NCBI GenBank assembly: GCA_025201365.1
Contig: JAIXMF010000003.1
Coordinates: 620,001 to 684,000, forward strand
DNA length: 64,000 bases
Direction: 5' to 3'
Source: Syncephalis plumigaleata
Taxonomy: Eukaryota; Zoopagomycota; Zoopagomycetes; Zoopagales; Piptocephalidaceae
The translations under genes were made by a program, and so were the position numbers. Within the stretch, counting starts at the first letter, position 1, and each line of letters opens with the position of its first letter. The notes beneath the pieces are model-generated. The model ran no database searches. It had not been told where the DNA came from and saw only the letters and a list, made by a program, of their open reading frames with translations. Shown here in pieces: positions 760 to 56,017 of the stretch.

Positions 760-1661
760 TTATTTTTGAGTCTTCCTTGCTTTACGCTTGTTTGCTCCAT
801 TTCCTGTGTATGATCGTTACAATTAACAAGCTGTTCGTTTATAATTCATGTTAGCATAGCTTACTATTCTTCTTCTTTTGTTGTGTTGATTTACTCGTTT
901 CACTATCAGTCGTTGAATCTTCATCTGTTTTTTGCTTCTTTGGATTTCTCCCTTCTACTGATTCATCCTGACCGAGTGTTGTCTCCTCATTACTCGCATC
1001 TTAATAATAATGATTATACTTAGTCTATTATTAAATACACTCATTAATCGATTAATAGTTACCTTTACTTTTCTCTACTAATTGTGGTAGATTATGCTTA
1101 ATAAATCGTGCAGCTGCCTCTTTATCAATAGTCATGGTGGCTATAATGGAGATAGTACACAATGTTAGAAATACTACTATCGCCTCCTTAATAATACTCT
1201 GTTTACTTACGTTTTGGTGGATTCTCCGTCTCTTGTATCTTTACAATATACGATCTAATACGATCCTAATAATAATAGTAATAGTAATAACAGTAATCAA
1301 TCACGTATTAGTATCAAGTAATATGTACGATAATCACTACTATTATGTACCAATTCACGTTTTACTGAATGTTTCTCTGGTGCATCACCTTGCATCTTCA
1401 AGTAAACTAATATCAATATAACAATTAGATTAAAATGGTTACATTATCTGCGGGATAGCAAGCGTACATACCCCAAAAGAGTGAATTAAGTGTATAGGCT
1501 AGCATAACCTGGAATTTAGCACGGTCTGAAGCTTGAAGTCGACCAGAAACCTCATTGTATGGTGTTTGCAACAATGCCGCTAATTGCTGTTGAATACTCT
1601 CAACAGTAGCAGACAAATCGTTGGCTGTCTTGACAAGTGGAGCTGTTGTTGCGTCCGACAT
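760..1661 (-). CDS. C1D: Nuclear nucleic acid-binding protein C1D / exosome cofactor LRP1 (Rrp47)
   Basis: Cofactor of the nuclear exosome that in known relatives binds Rrp6 and supports 3' processing of rRNA and snoRNA. Six exons fit one frame: 1472-1661, 1351-1406, 1211-1265, 1063-1140, 865-999 and 760-803, giving 185 residues. The family core is clear: AYTLNSLFW followed by VYLKMQGDAPEKHSVKREL, then the helix AAARFIKHNL near the C-terminus. The tail is Asp/Glu- and Lys-rich and ends in a basic patch, as expected of the nuclear RNA-binding tail. The exon lengths sum to a multiple of three and every intron has a good donor and acceptor. Family assignment rests on recalled similarity to human C1D. 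Confidence 0.85.
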
Positions 1662-2008
1662 GATTATTCAGCGTCAATTAGACAACTATATTGTGATTAA
1701 GAGGAATGAATAGCAAATATCGATAAAGAGAAGGAGATAGTCGATGATATGAATTAAACAAAAATAAAAAATAAAAATAAAATGACATCCAGTAATTAGC
1801 ACAGCCTAGTATAACTAATAGAAACAGACATGCTCTTAATTGATGTTTATGTTTATTCTAAGTAATATTTGTAATAATAGCAATAGTCAATGGTAAGCAA
1901 TAATGCATCAAGTAAACTGATATAATTTTGTAATAGAAAAAAATGGATTCCTTAGGATAGTAATTACATTAACGGTGACCATCATCATCATCATCATCAT
2001 CATCATCA
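1662..2008. other. Intergenic, C1D promoter side and SMP-gene 3' flank
   Basis: No gene seen. AT-rich DNA with a (CAT)n run at about 1981-2010 that abuts the stop codon of the SMP-domain gene. Confidence 0.7.
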
Positions 2009-5000
2009 TTAATGAGTAGTCGTCGACCAGGCTGATGACTCGTGTCCCCATGTATCGGATAGTTCAGTTGGTCTTAGTGTACCGGTAGCTTCACCACTAC
2101 CATCAATGACGTAGCTACTCGTGTCTAGAAGACCGCTTAATATACGACTTTTACGCTTGCTATTCGTCGATGAATTGGACGAGTTCTTTGGTGAATTGGT
2201 TAAGCCTGCCGAGGTGGATGATGACACCGGTGTACTCACTGCAGTACGTGTTTCTTCATTCTCCCATGACGATGCCGATGATGATGTGATGGGCATGGCA
2301 GCGATAGATACCGCAGGTGAACGTGTCAATATACGTTGTGTTCTTGTATAAACAGAAGGTGAAGAAGAAGAAGAAGAGGTGGTGGCAGTAGTGGCAGCAG
2401 CAGCATTGGTGATAGTAGTGGCAGTAGTGGCAGTTGGTTCACGAATACTAAATGATGGCTGTGCTGCTGCATTGGCTAGTGTGGTTGTCCTAGTAGGAAC
2501 TGGACGAGAGCTGCCATCGTTTCCTGTCGATCGAGAGCGTATCATTGATGCCGATATGGTTGGTGTCGTGGATGCATGTTGCATAAGTCGAGATAGTCCG
2601 GCTAGACCACCATCGGGTTTCTTCGCTGCTAGGAATAATGAAGGCGATGCCGTTAACTTGGATGAATCATCATATTTACTAGTATTGTCATTGGTCGGTG
2701 ATTCTGATGTAATACTACTGTTGATTGTATCAGAAGAAGGTGTTTCTACATGTAATTCCGGTACTTTATGTGTCGATAACAATGCTGCAGCAGTAGTAGA
2801 TGTGGTGAGATTTGTAGGCTGCGGTGTTTCTATTATCTTATTCATTGCTGATTCGATATCATCTTGACTACTATGATTCAATGTTTCTTCCGTATTATTC
2901 TCGTGGTCATTCTCGTGGTCATTCGCATTATCCTCTGACAATGATGATTCCTGCGTAGTCTCTTCATTCTTTTCTGTTGCTTCACTTGGTGTTGATTCTT
3001 CTGTAGTAGTAGATGGACTACTAGGTGCCTCTGCCACTATTATGGTTTCTTCCGATTGTACTACATCAGGTGGATGGCGTATGTCACTACCGAAAATGCC
3101 ACCTGTGCCATAAGTGTTAAAGAATGGCATATCATCCATGTTGGGTAGTACGATGGTCTCGCGCATCATGTCACGTACACGATTCAAGATCGCTTTAGTG
3201 ATGACGGGATACTTGAGCGACTTCGTACTTACTACCGGTTCCATCGATATATCCATGTCGGGCATATCGAAGAAACCGATCCATAATCGATTCGATGGTG
3301 GTGGCTTGATCTTTACGAGCATTCGACCTTCGAAATGCTTAACCAAAGCGGATAACACGACTGGAACGTGAATGGAACGAACACGAGAGGATACACTTAT
3401 GATGGCGCCCGTTTCAATCTCTACTCGGAATCCACCCTCGTAGCGAATACGCACCGAGATACGCAATGTTCCATCGGGTGATAGTTCAAGTAAACGTGGA
3501 TCCCATATATGTGGTGCTTGATTACCGACATCGAGATCTCGTACCTTGATATCATCAATAAAATCCGGTTTACGTAGTCTTTTCGTCTTCTTGATGATCT
3601 TATTGATAAAGTGTTGTCGCAATTCCGGTGTTTTATACACGCTAAGGAACAATCGACCCAGCAGTGCATTGAGCCATGGCACGGAATGATCGGCGTCAGC
3701 ATCCGAGTACACCTGACCGATAACACGACGCATGGCAGCCGTGTCAAAGTTCAACTCGGTCAATGGATTGACAGGTTGACGCGACTGAGAAGGAGCGGAA
3801 TGTGCATCCGTATCATTTGGGCTTGTGTCCGTCGTGGAATCGTGTGTTCCCGAGGCAATAGCCGTGGAGGCCGGTGTAGTGGCCATCGAGTTATCATGTG
3901 CATCCACCATGTCCATGAGACTACCGTGTCGTGATGATTTCAGTAGGGCGAAATACCAGTCCTCCTTTTCTACAGGCGCATTGATAAATAGATAATAATC
4001 GCGCGACTCCTCCTCTTCCTCCATAACATCGTCGTGTGGCGTAGGACGACGTGCCAAACGGATCGGTGTATCCTTGAGGAATATCTCATTGTCCGGTAGT
4101 CCAGGTGGATAGATGCTTACATCGTGCATGGATGTTAGAATAACACCACGACAATCAAGTTGCTCGTCGGTATCGTAAAGGAAAAGCGTGTCATACTTTA
4201 GAACGGCAAAGAACGTGTCGATTTCAGGATGATCATGATGTTGCTGATGCTGCTGTTGCTGATGCGCATCATCTCGCTCCATTTGTTTTTGCATAAATGA
4301 AAATGGCTGATACGGTGGCGGTGTATTGCCATCAGTGTCAGTCGGGTGATTACGACCTCGTAAACGACGATAGAGCGATGTTGCATACGTATTGGCCGTG
4401 GATACAATGGACGATGTTCGTGCTGACAGTTTGTTACCACCATTATGTGGACTATGATTATCACTGCCAACATCACTGGTGTGTTCATGAGCGAGTGCAT
4501 CTTTCTCTGCTAATAGTTCGCTATTATTATTAGCATCATTCGCATCATTCGTGTTGTCTTCTAGTGGGATATTCCTGAAATTCTGGTGCTTTTGTTGACT
4601 AATTATACGTGCACGATTATCCTTGCGTAACTTTAGGCTTTGTCGTACTATGGCGCCCCAGTCTGAAAAGTCTATTGTAAGGCCACGTGGATTAGGTGTA
4701 CGAGCTACTCGCATCCAGCCTACACGATAATAGTGTTCATTATCTTCTTCCTCGTCGTCGTCGTTGTTGTTGTCGTCGCTTTCCACTTCACTATGGGTAT
4801 TGCCCGTATTATGTTCACGAGTGTTTTTAGTTTCTATGCCTAATCCTAACGGATCAGTACGAGTACTTTTGTTGAGACTACGAATACCACGACGATATCG
4901 GTGTCCAGTTGATTTTTTATGGTCGGGAAGTCGTGTAAATACAAAGTATGCTATGACACCAACTAAGCCAAGGAAAGTGGTAATCACAAAAACAATGCCT

Positions 5001-21955: not shown

Positions 21956-24900
21956 ATGGACACATCAAAGATACCTGAAGGCGCAGTGGGTGAACCTACC
22001 GTCACCACGAGTACGCATACCGACGCTGATGGTCGTACTGTTACCGTCACCACCACGCAATATCACGATGCGGATGGTCGCGTTCTAGCCGAGGAGGTAA
22101 CCGAGGAAGTCCTGGAAGAAGTGATCGAAGAGGCTCCCATCCCATCTCAAGAAGCGCTCGACACCACCACCACTACTGCTACTACGATGGAGGATCCAAA
22201 CAATAGTTCGGCCGGACGCACCACTATCATGTTCGAACAGCAAAAGAAGCCGGAGCGTGCTCCTCAACCGCAATTCTCCTCGGTACCTGAGGGTAAACCG
22301 GCTCCTCCACGCACGCCAAAACCTGCTTCACCACCTGTCGCCGATGGCAAGCCCAAGAAGGAAGAGAAGAACCTTGATATCGATGAGCATCTAATGACAC
22401 TCGAGGAAGTGTGCGATCGTTATGGTGTCACCATCGATCAAATACGTCCGGCGGATAGTCACGGTCTCAACAATGATCGTGCTGCACAACTACTCGAGGA
22501 ACACGGTCCCAATGTGCTTACACCGCCCAAGCGTAAACACCCGATTCTCGTATACCTGGAATTCCTGTTGTCGCTCTTCAACGTACTCCTCATGGTGGCC
22601 GGTGTTCTAGTCTACATTCTATACGGTATCAAGCCAAAGGAGAACGAGGCCAACTTGTACCTAGGTGCTATTCTTTTCATTGTAGCATTTGCCAATGCAT
22701 TCATCGAATTCTACCAGCATCAAAAGAGTGCAGCTATCCTTCAATCTTTCCTTAATATGATTCCACAAAAGTGCTACACTCTCCGTGAAGGAAAGCTCAA
22801 CCAGCAATCGGCAGCCGAATCGTACCGGGTGACGTTGTATTCGTGCGTATGGGCGATAAAGTACCCGCGGATCTACGTATTTTCGCTTCGTCCGATCTCA
22901 AGGTGGATAACTCGTCGCTCACCGGTGAATCGGAACCACAACCACGTACCAAAGATAACGATCACAAGAATCCACTTGAAGCATCGAATATCGCCTTCAA
23001 TGGCACGTTGGCAGTGGCCGGTGAAGGTTACGGCATTGTAGTACGAACGGGTGACCACACTGTGCTCGGTCAGATTGCCGGTATGACAGCCGGTGAAAAG
23101 GCCAATCGCAGTCCACTTTCCGTTGAAATCGATCGATTCGTCAAGATTATCGCCAGTATCGCGGCCGCATCAGCTGTTATCTTCTTTATCATTGGTATGG
23201 TCATTCACGATGCGAACGTCAGTTTCTGCTTGAATTTCGCCATTGGTGTCTGTGTGTCATGGGTACCAGAAGGTTTGCCCGCCACCATGACCATGCTTCT
23301 TACTATTGCCGCGAAACGAATGGCCTCTCGTAATGTGCTCGTTAAAGATCTGCAAGGTGTGGAGACCTTGGGTGCCATCACTTTACTGGCCACCGACAAG
23401 ACTGGTACACTTACGCGTAATCAAATGACGGTCACCTACATTTGGAGCTCGCAAAACTTCTACTCCGCCCTACGTGGTCTTCAAGATGACACGAGCCCAT
23501 TGACACCGGATGCACCTGGTATTCCGGAGGTATTGCACATCTCCACCTTGTGTTCTCGTGCCAAATTCGATCGTACCGATGTGCCAGTCGAGGAGCGTCA
23601 AGTGTTGGCCGATGCCACGGAAGCCGGTTTAATTCGTTTCGCCGCTCGTCATATTGAACACTTTGACGATATGCATAACATCTATCCCAAAGTGTTTGAA
23701 ATCCCCTTCAACTCGGATAACAAATGGGCGCTTACCATTCATCGTAAGAAGCACGCCAATGGCGAGTTGACCCTTTACATCAAGGGTGCACCCGAACGCG
23801 TACTTCGTCTCTGCTCGTCTATCCTATCGAACAACGGACCGGAACCATTGACCGCGACTCATCAGGAGAAGTACAACGAGATCTACGAGTACATGGCTAG
23901 CAAGGGACATCGTGTACTGGCATTTGCTCAACTTCTCTTACCTGGTAACGAGTATCCCGCAGATTACGAATTCAACAAGGATCCCGCCAACTATCCCACC
24001 GGTGATTACTGCTTCGTCGGTCTCGCTTCTCTCGAGGATCCGCCCAAACACGGTGTACGCGAGGCTATCGGTCGTTGTCGTGCTGCTGGATCCAAGTGAT
24101 GATGGTAACGGGTGACCATCCATTGACCGCCGAAGCCATCGGTCGTAAGATCAATTGATGTTGTCGGAAACGAAGCCACAAGTCGCCAAACGTCTTGGTC
24201 GTCCCGTGGAAAGTATCGAGGAGCACGAGTATCAAGCGATTGTCATTCATGGCGAGCAGATCGACTCGTTCGCCGATGAGGATTGGGATCGTGTCTTCTC
24301 GAAGAATGAGATTATCTTTGCTCGTACCTCGCCTCGTCACAAGTTGAGATTGTTAGACACGCGCAATCACTCGGTCATATCGTCAGTGTCACCGGTGATG
24401 GTGTCAATGACTCGCCCGCCCTGAAGAAGGCCGATCTCGGTATTGCCATGAATATCTCGGGATCGGACGTGTCCAAGGAAGCGGCCGCCATGATTTTACT
24501 CGATGACAATTTCGCCTCCACCGTGAACGGTATCGAAGAGGGTCGACTTATCTTTACCAATTTGAAGAAATCGATTCAATACACCATCACGCACAGTATG
24601 CCGGAAGTATTCGCCAGTTTACTTTACATTGTCGTTCCATTACCGCTACCATTGTCGGCCATTCTTATTCTAGTGGTTGATCTCGGTTTCGAAATGTTCA
24701 TGGCTCTTAGTTTCGCTTGGGAGAAACCGGAGACGAAGCAAGGTCTGATGAAAATGCCACCACGTAAACCGGTAACACCGGCAAGTGTGGAGCGTTTACG
24801 TCGTCGTCAAGCACGTCAACTAAAGGGTAGACTTGACGAGGAATCGGGCGAGATTATTCCACCCACTCGTGCTCAACGCTTCCGTCATTCATGGAGTCAA

Positions 24901-25560
24901 TTCTTCTCGGGTGTCTGGTGGCGTGACCTACGTGAACCAACAGAGGAACAGGTGCTCGTTGATTTCGGCGTCCTATCATGGGCCTACCTCGAAGTGGGCA
25001 TCATCGAGACGATCGGTTCATTTGTAGCGTATTTCGTCGCACTTAGCCGACATGGCATTACACCATCCATCGCCAAGGCAGCCGCCAATAGCAACACTGG
25101 CAACTACTTTACCAGTATCGCTGATCCATTAGACATTGGTAATGGCAAGGTGCTCAGTGCCGATGAACAAATGGAGATTCTTGCTCAAGCGCAAACCAGC
25201 TACTACATGGCACTGATGATCATGCAGCTGTTCAATCTATTCGCTTGCAAATGCCGTATCCGCTTGCCATTCGGTCGTTACATGTTCGCTAACCGTGCCT
25301 CATTCTACGGTATGTTCGGTGGTATCTTCATCGGTGTATTTGTCAGTTACGTGCCATTCATGAACGTTGCTTTCGGCACCTCCTATAAGACACCGGTCTA
25401 CTTGCACTTGATTGGCGTGGCATTCGGCGTATTCATCATCTTCTATGCCACAATGCGTATGATCATCCTTCGTAAGAGTCGACCAATTCGTTGGAATCCC
25501 GAGATTTCCGGTTTGCAAATGCATCCTACTGCTTATTCAGTGGGTAGTACCAAGAACTAA
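21956..25560 (+). CDS. P-type cation ATPase, type IIC-like (Na+/K+-ATPase alpha-like)
   Basis: Membrane cation pump of about 1200 residues without introns. A 130-residue N-terminal extension includes two DADGR-centred repeats and acidic and Pro-rich parts. The pump core follows: LTPPKRKHPILVYLEFLLSL (M1), SSLTGESEPQPR (actuator), WVPEGLPATMTMLL (M4), ATDKTGTLTRNQMTV (phosphorylation Asp), TGDGVNDSPALKKADLGIAM (hinge), then M5-M10. Four single bases appear lost, near 22815, 24090, 24155 and 24345. Each would be restored by lengthening a CC, GG or TT run, and every catalytic motif is intact, so I treat it as one real gene with consensus errors. The M4 sequence is partly like SERCA, so the exact ion is uncertain. 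Similar IIC pumps are known in some fungi. Confidence 0.85.
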
Positions 25561-31846: not shown

Positions 31847-31853
31847 TATAAAT
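31847..31853 (+). promoter_or_regulatory. TATA box of the micro-exon gene
   Basis: TATAAAT lies 145-151 nt upstream of the ATG, followed by a pyrimidine-rich leader of CTACT/CTCTC repeats (31895-31960). This is the same layout as the secreted-protein genes at the right end. Confidence 0.6.
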
Positions 31854-31997: not shown

Positions 31998-34542
31998 ATG
32001 AAGTTCTCTGCCGTTATCGCTATTGCCGTCGCCGTTATCGCTCTCACCAGTTTGGTCGCCGTTGAAGCTGGTCCCACATTGATTCGTCGTGGTATGTCTG
32101 GCCGTGACTCTATCAATTGATGTACTAATCGTAGTCTATTGTCTCATTGTCTACTGATGATTACTGATAGCTGGTAAGGTCATGTATATTAAATGGTTGT
32201 TTTGACGTGCTAATCACATCGTAATGTTTATTCTACCTATTAATTTGTTAATGATAGAGGGTAAGCTATTATATTGGCCATAGCAACAATCATGCTAATA
32301 GTAATATAAATCATGTGTGATTACCATTTCAAGGGCCCGTAAGTTATCATTCTGATTGTAATAAACAGAATACTAACTATAATTTGTCACACAATCGGTA
32401 TACTTGTCTATCACAGTGCGTAAGTTATCATTCTGATTGGAATCTATGAATGTACTAATCACGCTATGACACATGATCCACGTACACTTCTATATGATAG
32501 ATTGTAAGTCATTTTTCTGACCGTAATGAGTGAGATATTAATTACAACGTGGCACATGATTTCACTATGATAGAAAGTAAGTTATCATCCTGACTGCAAT
32601 GAATCGACGTACTAATTTTAGTATGACACATGATCCATGTATGTTCCCGTATGATAGATCGTAAGTTATCATTCCAATGATGCTGTACGGTGCACTAACT
32701 ACAATATGGCACATAATACATATGCTTGTATACGATAGAGCGTAGGTTATCATTTTGGCAGTAACGTATGAGGTACTAACTACGCTATGGCACACATTTC
32801 ATCTGCGTTTTTTGTATAATAGAACGTAAGTTATCATTTCTAATCGTAATCTATGAGGTACTAATCACGCTATGACACACGATCCACATACGTTCTTGTA
32901 TGATAGAGAGTAAGTGATCGCCTTAAACCAACGTACGATGTACTAACTGTAGTATGACACGCGATCCATGCGTATGTCCCGGTATGACAGTGTGTAAGTT
33001 GCCATTCCATTTACAAACTATGGTGTACTAATGATGATGTGGCATACGATCCATACGTATATCTGCCCATAACAGTGTGTAGGTTACCATTCTGATCGTA
33101 ATGAATGGATGTACTAACTATGATATCGCATATGATTCACCTATGTTCATGTATGATAGTATGTAAGTAATCATTCCGCTCATAATACCTGATGTACTAC
33201 TAACTGCGTTGCACATAATCTATACGTGTTTTCGTATGATAGGAAGTAAGTTACCATTTTTACTGTAAAGAATGAATGAGTACTAATCACGTTATGGCGC
33301 ATGATCAACGTATGTTCCTGTATGATAGAACGTAAGTTATCATCTCGATTGTAATCTATAGATGTACTAAGCACGATATGACACACGATCCACACACGCT
33401 CCTGTACGATAGAGTGTAAGTGAATATGGCTGGCTGTAATGTACGACGTACTAATTATGCTATGGTATGCGATTTACACATGTTCCTGTACGATAGGACG
33501 TAAGTCATCATTCCGGTTATAACTATGGTATACTAATTACACTATGACACACGATCCACACGTTCCTGTATGATAGAAAGTAAGTAATTATTCTGATTGC
33601 AACGTATGAAGGTACTAATTATACCATGCCACATGATCCACGTATGTTTGTGTATGGCAGCCTGTAAGTGATCATTCTGGCTGCAATGAATGGGATGCTG
33701 ACTACAATACGGCGCATGATCTACCAATGTTTGTGTATGATAGGGAGTAAGTTACCATTACGACCGTAATGAATGAATGATGTACTAATCGTAACGTGAC
33801 GCATGATTTCCTTATGATAGACCGTAAGTTACCATTCTTACCGTAATGAATGGCGTACTAATTATAACGGGGCGCATGATTCCTTTATATTTTTGTATGA
33901 AAGCTTGTAAGTTGACATTTCAATCGTAATGAATAAGTACTAATCGCAGTATTGACACATAATCCACATATGTTTCTGTATAACAGTTTGTAAGTAATCA
34001 TGCTAACTATAATGAATGATGTACTAATGATAATATGGCATATGATTTCCATACATTTATGGATAACAGTGCGTAAGTTACTATTCCTGATGATAGCATA
34101 TGGGTGTATTGATATTAATACGGCGTATGATCTACCAATGTTCATGTATGATAGGATGTAAGTGATCATTCTAGCTGCAATGAATGGCGTACTAACCACA
34201 ATACGGCACATTATCTATGTATGTTTGTGTACGATAGGACGTAAGTTACTATTCTAACCGTAATGAATGAGGCACTAATTACAATACAATCTACATCACC
34301 TGGACGATAGCGATAAGCGGTAAGTAATAATCCACATGCTAATCATACTCATACTAATCCATTATGATTACAGGACAAGACAAGGGCATCGTCAAGTAGA
34401 TATTATAGGTATTCAAGTCAAGAATGGATTAGTGCAAGACCCTTTAGTGTCCATGTCATTCAAGTCATTATTCCTTGATACAACAACAACAAGCATATCT
34501 ACAAGTCCCTTACGTCTATTCATCCATGGTCCTATTACATAA
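31998..34542 (+). CDS. Micro-exon gene: secreted Cys-containing peptide encoded one codon per exon
   Basis: Exon 1 (31998-32091) encodes a signal peptide ending VAVEA and then GPTLIRR. After it I read 27 tiny exons and a final one. Exons 2 and 3 are three bases (32171, 32258) and exon 4 is five (32334-32338), which resets the phase to zero. Twenty-three exons of exactly three bases then start at 32417, 32501, 32574, 32658, 32739, 32823, 32907, 32991, 33076, 33160, 33243, 33329, 33413, 33497, 33577, 33661, 33744, 33821, 33904, 33987, 34070, 34155 and 34238. A nine-base exon (34311-34319) contains TAA, and the last exon starts at 34374. Each gap is a full intron: donor GTAAGT, branch TACTAAT, acceptor ATAG or ACAG. 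The short product is 59 residues with Cys at 36, 43, 44 and 56 (C-X6-CC-X11-C). An alternative acceptor would give about 114 residues. Function unknown; secreted by prediction. Confidence 0.72.
32092..34310 (+). repeat. Array of about 84-bp intron-plus-codon units
   Basis: Spacing between successive three-base exons is mostly 83-86 nt, with a few units of 73-81. The units are degenerate relatives: GTAAGTTATCATTCTG at the start, TGTACTAATCAC in the middle, TATGACACATGATCC next and TGTATGATAG at the end. The three bases between ATAG and the next GTAAGT are the most variable part. This is neither a CRISPR array nor a simple minisatellite, because the conserved blocks are precisely the splice signals. 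Confidence 0.9.
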
Positions 34543-35480
34543 ATATTAATCATTGATTGAATAAATATGTAATGCTATAGGGCATTCTTCTACTCTATTC
34601 ATCGTCCGATTCTTTCTTCTACTCCAACTATGCTTATTATTTATCGTGTGCCATGAATGAGCATTGTATATCGAGTGAGGTCATCGAATATTGATTACAC
34701 GAGTGCTATTTCATCACATATGTCAGTATCCTTAGAACTATGCTTCCTACATATTGTCATTACACTTGGATTACAACCAGTCATAACTATGTCTAGTGTT
34801 GCTGTAATACTAGGAACAAAGACAACGTCTACGTTTCTATACTTTAATGCTTAAACGATACAACAGCATGGAAGTGAGTGATGACAACAGTGATCAATGG
34901 GAGTGGTGAAAACACGATTCGATACACATACAAGTGATTACGGAGGACGTAGTCAAGTGTAAAAAAGGGAAGAAAGAGAAAGAGAGGTAATTGCAACGGA
35001 TACGTATTCTTCAATAGCACATCGTGACACCATTAACAATTTGATTTTATTAGCCTATACACACATTACATTTATGCGGTTGTTAGCCAAATAATCAGGC
35101 AAACGAAATAAAGTTGATTAACTAATTACTATTCATAATGGATATACTCGTCTCATTGCAATAGTCGACACCTTTTTAGCACTCATTAATGCTTATAGTG
35201 GAAAGTGACGCGTAAGGAAAGAGAGAATAATCGCCGCTTAGACACGTTTAGAATTACCGCTTTTATATAGATACTCCACGAACACACGATCATCTTATAC
35301 GTAATTAGTATTATTTTATTCGTGATTCAACGCTGACTAAGCTAGTTACCCTAATAACCAGTATCAACGAGTGTTGAACAAATGCATGTAGATCAAAGGC
35401 CGTTGCGTGATCATGTTACACTGAGTAAATGAAAAATCACGTGATGTTAACATTTCGATTTCTAAGCTTCAATCGCGATT
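34543..35480. other. Non-coding region downstream of the micro-exon gene
   Basis: 3' flank with AATAAA-like signals (near 34560); otherwise AT-rich with no gene recognised. Confidence 0.5.
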
Positions 35481-54603: not shown

Positions 54604-56017
54604 TCACCGGTGAGCTTGAGTGGGCATAGTTTCCTCGTGTTCCCCATCGGATGCGTCCATCTCGTCTTCTGGATTACTCTCCTGAGAATGAGCGTTTAGG
54701 GTTGGATCAAGATCCGAGGCTTCATCTTTGACACCGAGCTGTCGGCGTAATTCATGAATGTACGCGATGGCTCCTTGTAGCACAGAAAGTTTGTGCAAAT
54801 GATCCTGACCACGACATGATGGTACAAGACGGCGTAAATGGCCTATTTCACTGTTGATACGTTCGCGACGACGACGCTCGATAGCCGAGTGGGAAACGCG
54901 ACGCTGATGATCGCGCTTATCGACAATACGACGAGTAGCGCGGAATTTGGAGATTTGTGAGGCCATCGTGTTGGCTGGTGGAGCACCGCTGGATTTGGAT
55001 GCTGTGGAACCATTGCCAGATCTGCCATAATTGCCTATGCCGACGGAAAAGACAATATTACCCGAGTGATTGGGCGTATGACTGGAGGCATTTGAGTTGA
55101 CGTAGCTGACTCGTTCATTACGTGTTGCTGCCGTAACTGGAATGGTAACAGACTTTTTGATACCAGCAATAACGGGTGTGGTAGGAGTAATGGGAGCAGC
55201 GGGAGCACCTAGCCGTTGACTCTGATGATAGAGCGGATGTCCATGAGTAGATGAACGGACGATAGAAATCATTGGTGGGCGTTGCTGCTGTTGTTGATGT
55301 TGATGTTGATGTTGATGATGTTGATGATGATGTTGTTGATGACCATGCTGCATTGACGAGTGTGCGCGCAATGGTAATGGCGACTCTGGTGTATGGAATT
55401 GTGAATGTGGCATACGAGCAGATGATGAACTGACAAATCCAAATGACTGCGTTGGCCGTTGAAATCCTCATGATGCGATTGCTGCGAGTGATGCAGTCGT
55501 TGTGGAGAAGAAATCGGCATTCTCGGTGAGTATTTGTAGTTGCTGTCATGATGATTCTGATGCTGCTGTTGCTGCTGATGTACTGATGTTGTCTTACAGC
55601 TGGAATTGTTTGCATATCGCGTGCTAATGGCGAACATGGCGTGTTGCTGTGATAGGCCACCGGAGAATGACGATCTGGACCATGGTAAATGGCATTGTAG
55701 TTGGCCGACTGCTCCTTAGAAGCGGGGAAGATTGGCATGGGAGCGGTGTAAGAAGGACGAGTCATTACAGCTGGTCGTTGCGGTGAATTTGGACGGAACT
55801 CGTCCGTTGGTGGCGATGGCATGCTACCGCGAGAGTGTTCCAAGTGTGGTAGATGACGATAGAGCGGTGTTGGTTGTGCAGGATCACTGTGAACGCTGGA
55901 TCGTGAAATAGATGATGGGTGCATTGGCGGTAGTGTTTTCTGTTCGTTCGAGTGGCTGGCGTAGTTTTTGTATTGGAAGTGAACTTGCGATTGTGATTGC
56001 GGCTGTGGCTGCTGCAT
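54604..56017 (-). CDS. bHLH transcription factor
   Basis: The C-terminal part holds a complete basic helix-loop-helix: basic region HSAIERRRRERINSEI (His-x3-Glu-x3-Arg spacing, as in E-box binders), a short loop with PSCRGQDHLHK, and helix 2 LSVLQGAIAYIHELRRQL. About 330 residues of disordered Gln/His/Ser/Pro-rich sequence precede it. Two single bases seem lost in this low-complexity part (about 55500-55620), which breaks the frame between the N-terminal half and the bHLH half. I start at ATG 56017; an upstream TTG start is not needed. A His/Gln run is encoded by a CAT/CAA repeat (about 55280-55345). Target genes are unknown. Confidence 0.8.

Follow-up and report, generated by a model that had tools for sequence, protein, structure and literature searches.

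The window analyzed here, a 64,000-nt stretch of a contig of Syncephalis plumigaleata, a fungus of the Piptocephalidaceae (Zoopagomycota, Zoopagales), carries on its forward strand a gene (31998–34319) composed of a 94-nt exon resembling those for signal peptides, 25 three-base exons, one five-base exon, and a short last coding exon. Pieces of a cation-transporting P-type ATPase (22843–25560) and a helix-loop-helix protein (54604–55413) are ordinary neighbors within the window, which gave no match in Rfam. On the minus strand, the ORF at 2009–5065 matches an S. plumigaleata protein with 93% identity over 69% of the query. Exon 1 (31998–32091) starts with ATG and runs through a signal-peptide-like stretch and a short part leading to Arg-Arg before ending in phase 1; the signal peptide and the processing at Arg-Arg are both predictions. 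Upstream of exon 1, a TATAAAT read directly on the forward strand (31847–31853) is a candidate core-promoter box, and a similarly placed one precedes another gene of the same family (L022). The remaining exons were obtained with a splice-chain search that scored donor, branch, and acceptor, was neutral to exon lengths of 1–9 nt, and used a donor profile trained on the AG-NNN-GT units themselves. This search returned a chain of 94, 3, 3, 5, 23 × 3, and 9 nt, all on the forward strand. Two phase-1 three-base exons (32171–32173 and 32258–32260) precede the five-base exon (32334–32338), which moves the frame from phase 1 to phase 0, and 23 phase-0 one-codon exons with 22 introns between them follow at 32417–34240, as found by both direct reading and the model. 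Four of the triplets, at 32417, 32991, 33076, and 34070, read directly as Cys codons. An earlier note on this DNA had given the same coordinates for exon 1 and the four Cys codons and had described the triplets and the five-base exon, and re-reading confirmed all of these, together with the order of two triplets before the five-base exon and 23 consecutive ones after it.

The 27 introns of the window model are 70–84 nt long (2,139 bases in total), and successive triplets lie 73–87 nt apart with an array tandem period of approximately 84 nt; as the earlier note had stated, the unit lengths vary and do not change in steps of three. The stop-free frame of 59 codons proposed there also stands, ending at the TAA in exon 34311–34319 (CGATAAGCG), where the model reads CGA TAA GCG, i.e., the final residue and the stop. 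A comparable stop block was present in the 15 complete paralogue models (window included). The exon from 34374 had been taken as the last coding exon; this was incorrect, and 34374 onward was dropped as the C-terminus because the frame meets TAA in 34311–34319, which leaves the sequence from 34374 as 3′ untranslated. The intron lying 3′ of the stop codon (34320–34373, forward strand) shows GTAAGT, CTAAT, and ACAG by direct reading, with its terminal acceptor chosen by the model. It is followed by the untranslated terminal exon (34374–34567, forward strand, far end approximate), in which an AATAAA-like motif was read directly near 34560 and whose start pattern recurs across the assembly.

Within the array, the distance from AG to the following GT was three in 25 cases and occurred 0–4 times at every other spacing from 0 to 15, in agreement with the 25 exons of fixed length counted before. 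The same peak appeared in 20 further regions of this genome, with 14–55 cases on one strand and 1–4 on the other. Across the assembly (32.6 Mb), TATGATAG-N(k)-GTAAGT matched 726 times at k = 3, 4 times at k = 2, and 0 times at k = 4, and TATGATAG-N(4–34)-GTAAGT gave 44 matches versus 52 in the reversed control. With looser flanks, TAG-NNN-GTAAGT was found 2,579 times versus 519 for TAG-NNNN-GTAAGT. Since 436 of the 733 array triplets found across the window and the 20 regions have these looser flanks, the assembly may, very roughly, contain ~3,460 one-codon exons, haplotype copies included.

Exon 1 was near-identical in 19 of the 20 further regions, and these 19 regions and the window formed the first set of 20 modeled loci; L014, in which no first exon could be recognized, does not belong to it. 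Among the 684 inner exons of this set, haplotype copies included, 625 were 3 nt long and 660 were multiples of three, and the corresponding values for the 15 distinct genes were 445 and 471 of 489, respectively. The longest runs reached 47 consecutive one-codon exons, and the phase-setting exon of the paralogues was 5 or 2 nt long. In 15 of the 20 loci, the frame that starts in exon 1 stayed open as far as the last coding exon. No complete open model was obtained for L011 and L017 (a 2-nt exon inside the array), L012 (3′ end lost), L018 (interrupted), or L026 (a 59-nt exon picked by the splice-chain program), and the 2-nt exons of L016 and L020 were compensated in the next exon. In L018 (approximately 1500–4260 of the reversed locus), unrelated sequence, possibly an insertion, separates a run of 8 triplets from one of 24. 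A second batch comprised 12 loci, of which 10 were modeled (no model was obtained for L040, and no start was found in L029) and two (L030 and L031) also belonged to an 18-locus set used below. Seven of the 10 remained open up to the last coding exon, ending in TGA in L031 and in TAA in the six others, and L032, L033, and L038 failed; 184 of the 205 inner exons were 3 nt long and 194 were multiples of three.

Several loci depart from the common plan. L032 (248–920) seems to be a family member nearly devoid of an array, with a few short exons and then the stop block, and L022 contains a second array (11–1704) located 5′ of the main gene, whose introns appear to differ from the usual type and which ends in the same kind of terminal exon. 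The L029 array, which includes Cys triplets, lies on the contig of the window at 613300–618900, just upstream of the window and on the opposite strand, so array genes can neighbor each other on one contig.

The earlier note had treated the window gene as a single finding; the gene itself was upheld, and it is not alone. An exon-1/intron-1 pattern had 97 matches in the assembly with at most three mismatches (one in the reversed control), and the start pattern of the terminal exon had 152 (none in the reversed control), both including haplotype copies. The family thus has some hundred or more copies in this assembly, again with haplotype copies counted. Of 120 candidates in the array search and 197 in the exon-1 search, 40 each were scored, and the locus lists are therefore lower bounds. 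The pattern occurs on many contigs, several of them longer than 1 Mb, and several small contigs of the assembly are haplotype copies of segments of large contigs.

A protein search with ten predicted peptides retrieved 26 proteins, 18 of which were named S. plumigaleata. Some annotated proteins, such as P0077, P0082, and P0095, have the family first exon and mature parts unlike the arrays read here; the signal-peptide exon may be a secretion module open to reuse. Four metagenome proteins (P0092, P0096, P0098, and P0099) end a few residues past Arg-Arg, and their ends resemble the S. plumigaleata exon 1 read through an unspliced first intron; given this likeness, relatives outside this genome may share at least the first exon. 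Counted downstream of the five-base exon, public models P0078 and P0075 match 40 of 45 and 38 of 41 one-codon exons, respectively; both skip Cys codons and also continue into an intron or beyond the stop. P0076 follows seven codons of the chain, and P0080 follows little or none of it. We considered the public models as transcript proof and dropped them in that role, as they partly disagree with the chain and may be automatic predictions. No uninterrupted stretch encoding one of the predicted peptides turned up in a genome search, a result that carries no weight.

In 607 array units, the introns measured 59–91 nt (mode 80 nt) with a GTAAGT donor consensus and an AG acceptor, and a branch motif, mostly TACTAAT or TACTAAC, was present in 549. 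They carry the spliceosomal (U2-type) donor, branch, and acceptor consensus, resemble one another, and recur within this gene family at codon-exact spacing; they are predicted to be removed from mature transcripts. Ordinary introns of this genome were looked for as a donor control, and no clear case was found. Interrupted loci, 2-nt exons, and haplotype copies in the assembly would fit decayed genes or an assembly artefact. Such an origin is scarcely credible, however, as the pattern recurs on many contigs, several above 1 Mb, with near-consensus splice signals and with triplets that have accumulated no stops.

The last point was assessed in the 18 loci, from which haplotype copies had been removed. 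None of the 551 true triplets was a stop (the 553 raw triplets held two TAA, both in L022, which were overlapping mis-matches four bases off true triplets), whereas column shuffling led to an expectation of 15.9 stops, with a minimum of 3 in 20,000 shuffles. The second batch, which overlaps the first set through L030 and L031, likewise had no stop in 184 triplets. Read in the two other frames, the joined triplets contained 5 and 57 stops in 535, i.e., one other frame was also stop-poor. Genome-wide, all 20 matches to TATGATAG-TRR-GTAAGT were TGG.

Codon choice in the triplets would fit selection by the splice sites around them. A CAG or AAG codon would provide an additional acceptor, and GAG works poorly as one. 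In the array triplets of the 18 loci, CAG occurred 0 times versus 15 for CAA and AAG 4 times versus 28 for AAA, and GAG was not avoided (17 versus 14 for GAA). The comparison set, 2,655 codons from six uncurated ORF pieces of the window, gave 28 CAG versus 61 CAA, 65 AAG versus 45 AAA, and 68 GAG versus 89 GAA. Avoidance of CAG and AAG with retention of GAG is what selection by a working acceptor before each triplet would produce. On the donor side, codons ended in G more often beside non-GTAAGT donors with G at +5 (22/97 versus 49/569, P = 0.00014), as U1 pairing predicts for such donors; the weak-donor class (5 of 14 codons ending in G) holds mis-registered sites and is unreliable. Synonymous use also differed from the ORF pieces (TTT 15 and TTC 2 in triplets versus 24 and 66, respectively), and we attribute this difference from ordinary coding sequence, tentatively, to splice constraints.

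The earlier note had argued that the triplets are translated, and this reading gained support from the absence of stops, the frame kept among paralogues, the recurring C...CC...C order, and the avoidance of acceptor-making codons. Alternatively, the array could be a single long composite intron, or a satellite resembling introns, whose triplets are never joined, with exon 1 spliced to the terminal exon or the triplets always skipped, and with the regular splice sites serving only the stepwise removal of the whole array. Sites for stepwise removal of long introns are known elsewhere, which lends this account a precedent, and the join of exon 1 to 34374 would be briefly open (GGA CAA GAC AAG GGC ATC GTC AAG TAG). 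However, a composite intron predicts neither the 0/551 stops, the C...CC...C order, nor the CAG/AAG avoidance, and the in-frame TAA that follows the last triplet is equally unexpected. Moreover, the terminal exon of L017 has a one-base deletion, which would shift the frame of such a join. We regard the composite-intron account as highly improbable; most likely, the one-codon exons are real and constitute a family-wide gene layout.

Part of the predicted mature peptides share a cysteine pattern. Nine of the 18 loci had four Cys triplets arranged as C...CC...C, the loops between them differing in length; L030 had three Cys, L016 had two, and seven loci had none. The same order was seen in L034, L035, L036, and L039 of the second batch. 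In Pfam and PDB, the predicted peptides had marginal matches only, among them a weak one of 1 of 10 peptides to the Pfam Conotoxin family (PF02950, E = 0.0071). Leaving out the first Cys after the five-base exon, CAG preceded 31 of 31 Cys codons versus 89 of 471 other codons, and in the second batch, which shares L030 with the first set, 24 CAG and 3 TAG preceded Cys. The intron ends before Cys were GATAACAG (9), CATAACAG (7), TATGACAG (6), and others (9), distributed largely by position, and the nearest relative of a Cys unit was another Cys unit in 26 of 31 cases. On the simplest reading, the Cys units would be old, position-fixed units.

These acceptors bear on the question of whether every triplet is always included. 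The one-codon exons could be real and yet used combinatorially, many being skipped, randomly or in a regulated way, and each gene thereby yielding several in-frame peptides side by side; CAG acceptors would, conjecturally, secure the inclusion of the Cys exons. Any subset of three-base exons stays in frame, the Cys codons carry CAG as just described, and some codons are absent from public models, all of which would fit. Pro codons, however, also mostly follow CAG (30/40), the positional relationship of the Cys introns (26/31) means that descent suffices to explain CAG, and the public models, which look automatic, omit CAG-preceded Cys codons as well. We consider combinatorial use possible but unlikely. 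In the same tentative sense, the arrays may be a splicing-driven peptide library in which up to ~47 frame-neutral exons are combined in many ways at about a hundred loci, a suggestion for which we hold a similarly low expectation. If it were true, a fungal parasite would secrete clouds of related disulphide peptides with the Cys skeleton secured by CAG, and these would be tuned over generations by the gain, loss, and swap of intron–codon units.

Comparisons among units indicate how the arrays vary. Six locus pairs were haplotype copies, with longest matches of 5.3–9.9 kb at 92–97% identity. Between them, and with the bases adjoining splice sites tallied separately, 8 of 639 triplet bases differed versus 519 of 15,545 intron bases (21.4 triplet differences expected, P = 0.0009). 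The result leaned on the L012/L019 pair, without which 6 differences were found versus 10.9 expected (P = 0.08); dropping any other pair left P at or below 0.0073. Between units of different positions or genes, the picture was reversed: close units differed at 9.5% of intron sites versus 49–53% of codon positions. Among 187 close intron pairs, the adjoining codons were identical in 45, synonymous in 9, and non-synonymous in 133. When pairs were picked by one intron half and judged by the other, those diverged by at most 10% (38 and 49 pairs) differed at 43–44% of codon positions. This could reflect either fast codon diversification after unit copying or intron homogenisation among units.

The many non-synonymous neighbors (133/187) would also be expected if mobile, introner-like elements had invaded an ordinary gene between its codons. 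Introners are near-identical introns sitting at numerous unrelated genomic positions; the introns here are similar to one another and recur within this family. Independent insertions, however, should not land exactly three bases apart. In addition, the nearest relative of a unit lay within its own gene in 123 of 502 cases versus 31 expected, nearest relatives shared the upstream codon in 92 of 502 versus 15 expected, and the haplotypes L010 and L014 differ by a single 83-base unit, i.e., one intron together with one GCT codon. An origin by such invasion is accordingly improbable in our judgment.

We place the probability at roughly 0.9 that the window gene belongs to a large S. plumigaleata family of secreted peptides whose mature part is spelled one codon per exon, an estimate derived from genomic sequence. 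Counting against it are the weight of the L012/L019 pair in the haplotype comparison, the loci that lack a complete open model, the deviating synonymous codon use, the second stop-poor frame, and the partial disagreement of the public models. In the proposed model, the array would consist of head-to-tail units, each combining a complete intron of ~80 nt (GTAAGT, TACTAAY branch, and AG) with one codon. Splicing by intron definition would join the signal/pro exon, the phase-setting exon of 5 or 2 nt, N codons, and the stop exon, probably in a stepwise manner, since the machinery could hardly occupy the two flanks of a 3-nt exon simultaneously. The resulting secreted peptide would be short, would carry a dibasic site and, at roughly half of the loci that were read, would have a C...CC...C skeleton; the splicing and its order, the secretion, and the cleavage at Arg-Arg all belong to the model as predicted steps. 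As every codon comes with an intron of its own, a unit gained or lost adds or removes one residue and leaves the frame intact. Syncephalis is a genus parasitic on other fungi, and we infer that the peptides might serve contact with the host fungus or an attack on it.

Such a layout would offer a new route of secreted-peptide evolution, in which residues are gained, lost, and exchanged singly with the frame always safe. An exon is usually a coding stretch; here, it would be a single letter, and the intron would be the repeated and conserved element. The layout would also make testable how small an exon the spliceosome can join, how many such exons can follow one another, in what order they are joined, and by what means their skipping is avoided or exploited. 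Genes of this type are missed or garbled by gene finders, and comparable families may therefore hide in other genomes.

The peptides recall conotoxin prepropeptides, in which a constant signal/pro part is combined with a mature part that varies around its cysteines. The family described here likewise joins a constant signal/pro part to a variable Cys-based mature part; to our knowledge, one-codon exons are not a feature of the conotoxin family. Among the matches listed in the open-licence PMC literature on microexons, introners, and Syncephalis, there was no report of one-codon exon arrays. Regarding gene structure, the closest likeness is to the micro-exon genes (MEGs) of schistosomes, which have 10–20 exons, most of 15 bp, and introns of 0.1–5 kbp (PMC10526429). 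The exon range is given as 3–81 bp in the abstract of that source and with a minimum of 6 bp in its text (PMC10526429). MEGs encode secreted proteins and combine a conserved signal-peptide exon with many short exons, mostly multiples of three, and with variable mature parts (PMC10526429); the S. plumigaleata genes share the signal-peptide-like first exon and the short, mostly multiple-of-three exons (660/684), and their secretion is predicted. They differ in that exons of 3 nt prevail (625/684, up to 47 consecutive) and in that the introns are ~80 nt long and mutually similar rather than 0.1–5 kbp. The two lineages are far apart, and none of the 26 proteins matched by our word-based search, which would miss very distant kin, was named as flatworm.

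The bicycle genes of aphids have ~17 exons on average with internal exons nearly all in phase 2, and a ‘megacycle’ gene has >100 microexons for ~2000 residues, i.e., exons longer than one codon (PMC9168663). Many small exons of one phase in fast-evolving candidates for secreted effectors are common to both (PMC9168663), but the array exons here are in phase 0 after the 5- or 2-nt exon and in phase 1 before it. Exons of 1–3 nt are themselves within reach of the spliceosome, as described for Arabidopsis APC11 (PMC4674806) and, among fungi, for CYP621A of Fusarium (PMC12940212). Those exons are single and lie in otherwise ordinary genes, whereas the arrays here make up nearly the whole mature protein. 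The layout works most like a micro-exon gene, yet it departs from the known families in exon size, intron size, and phase. Under a stricter view, it could be counted as the extreme of micro-exon genes; we count it as a new kind because its exon is a single codon and the intron–codon unit is the unit of change.
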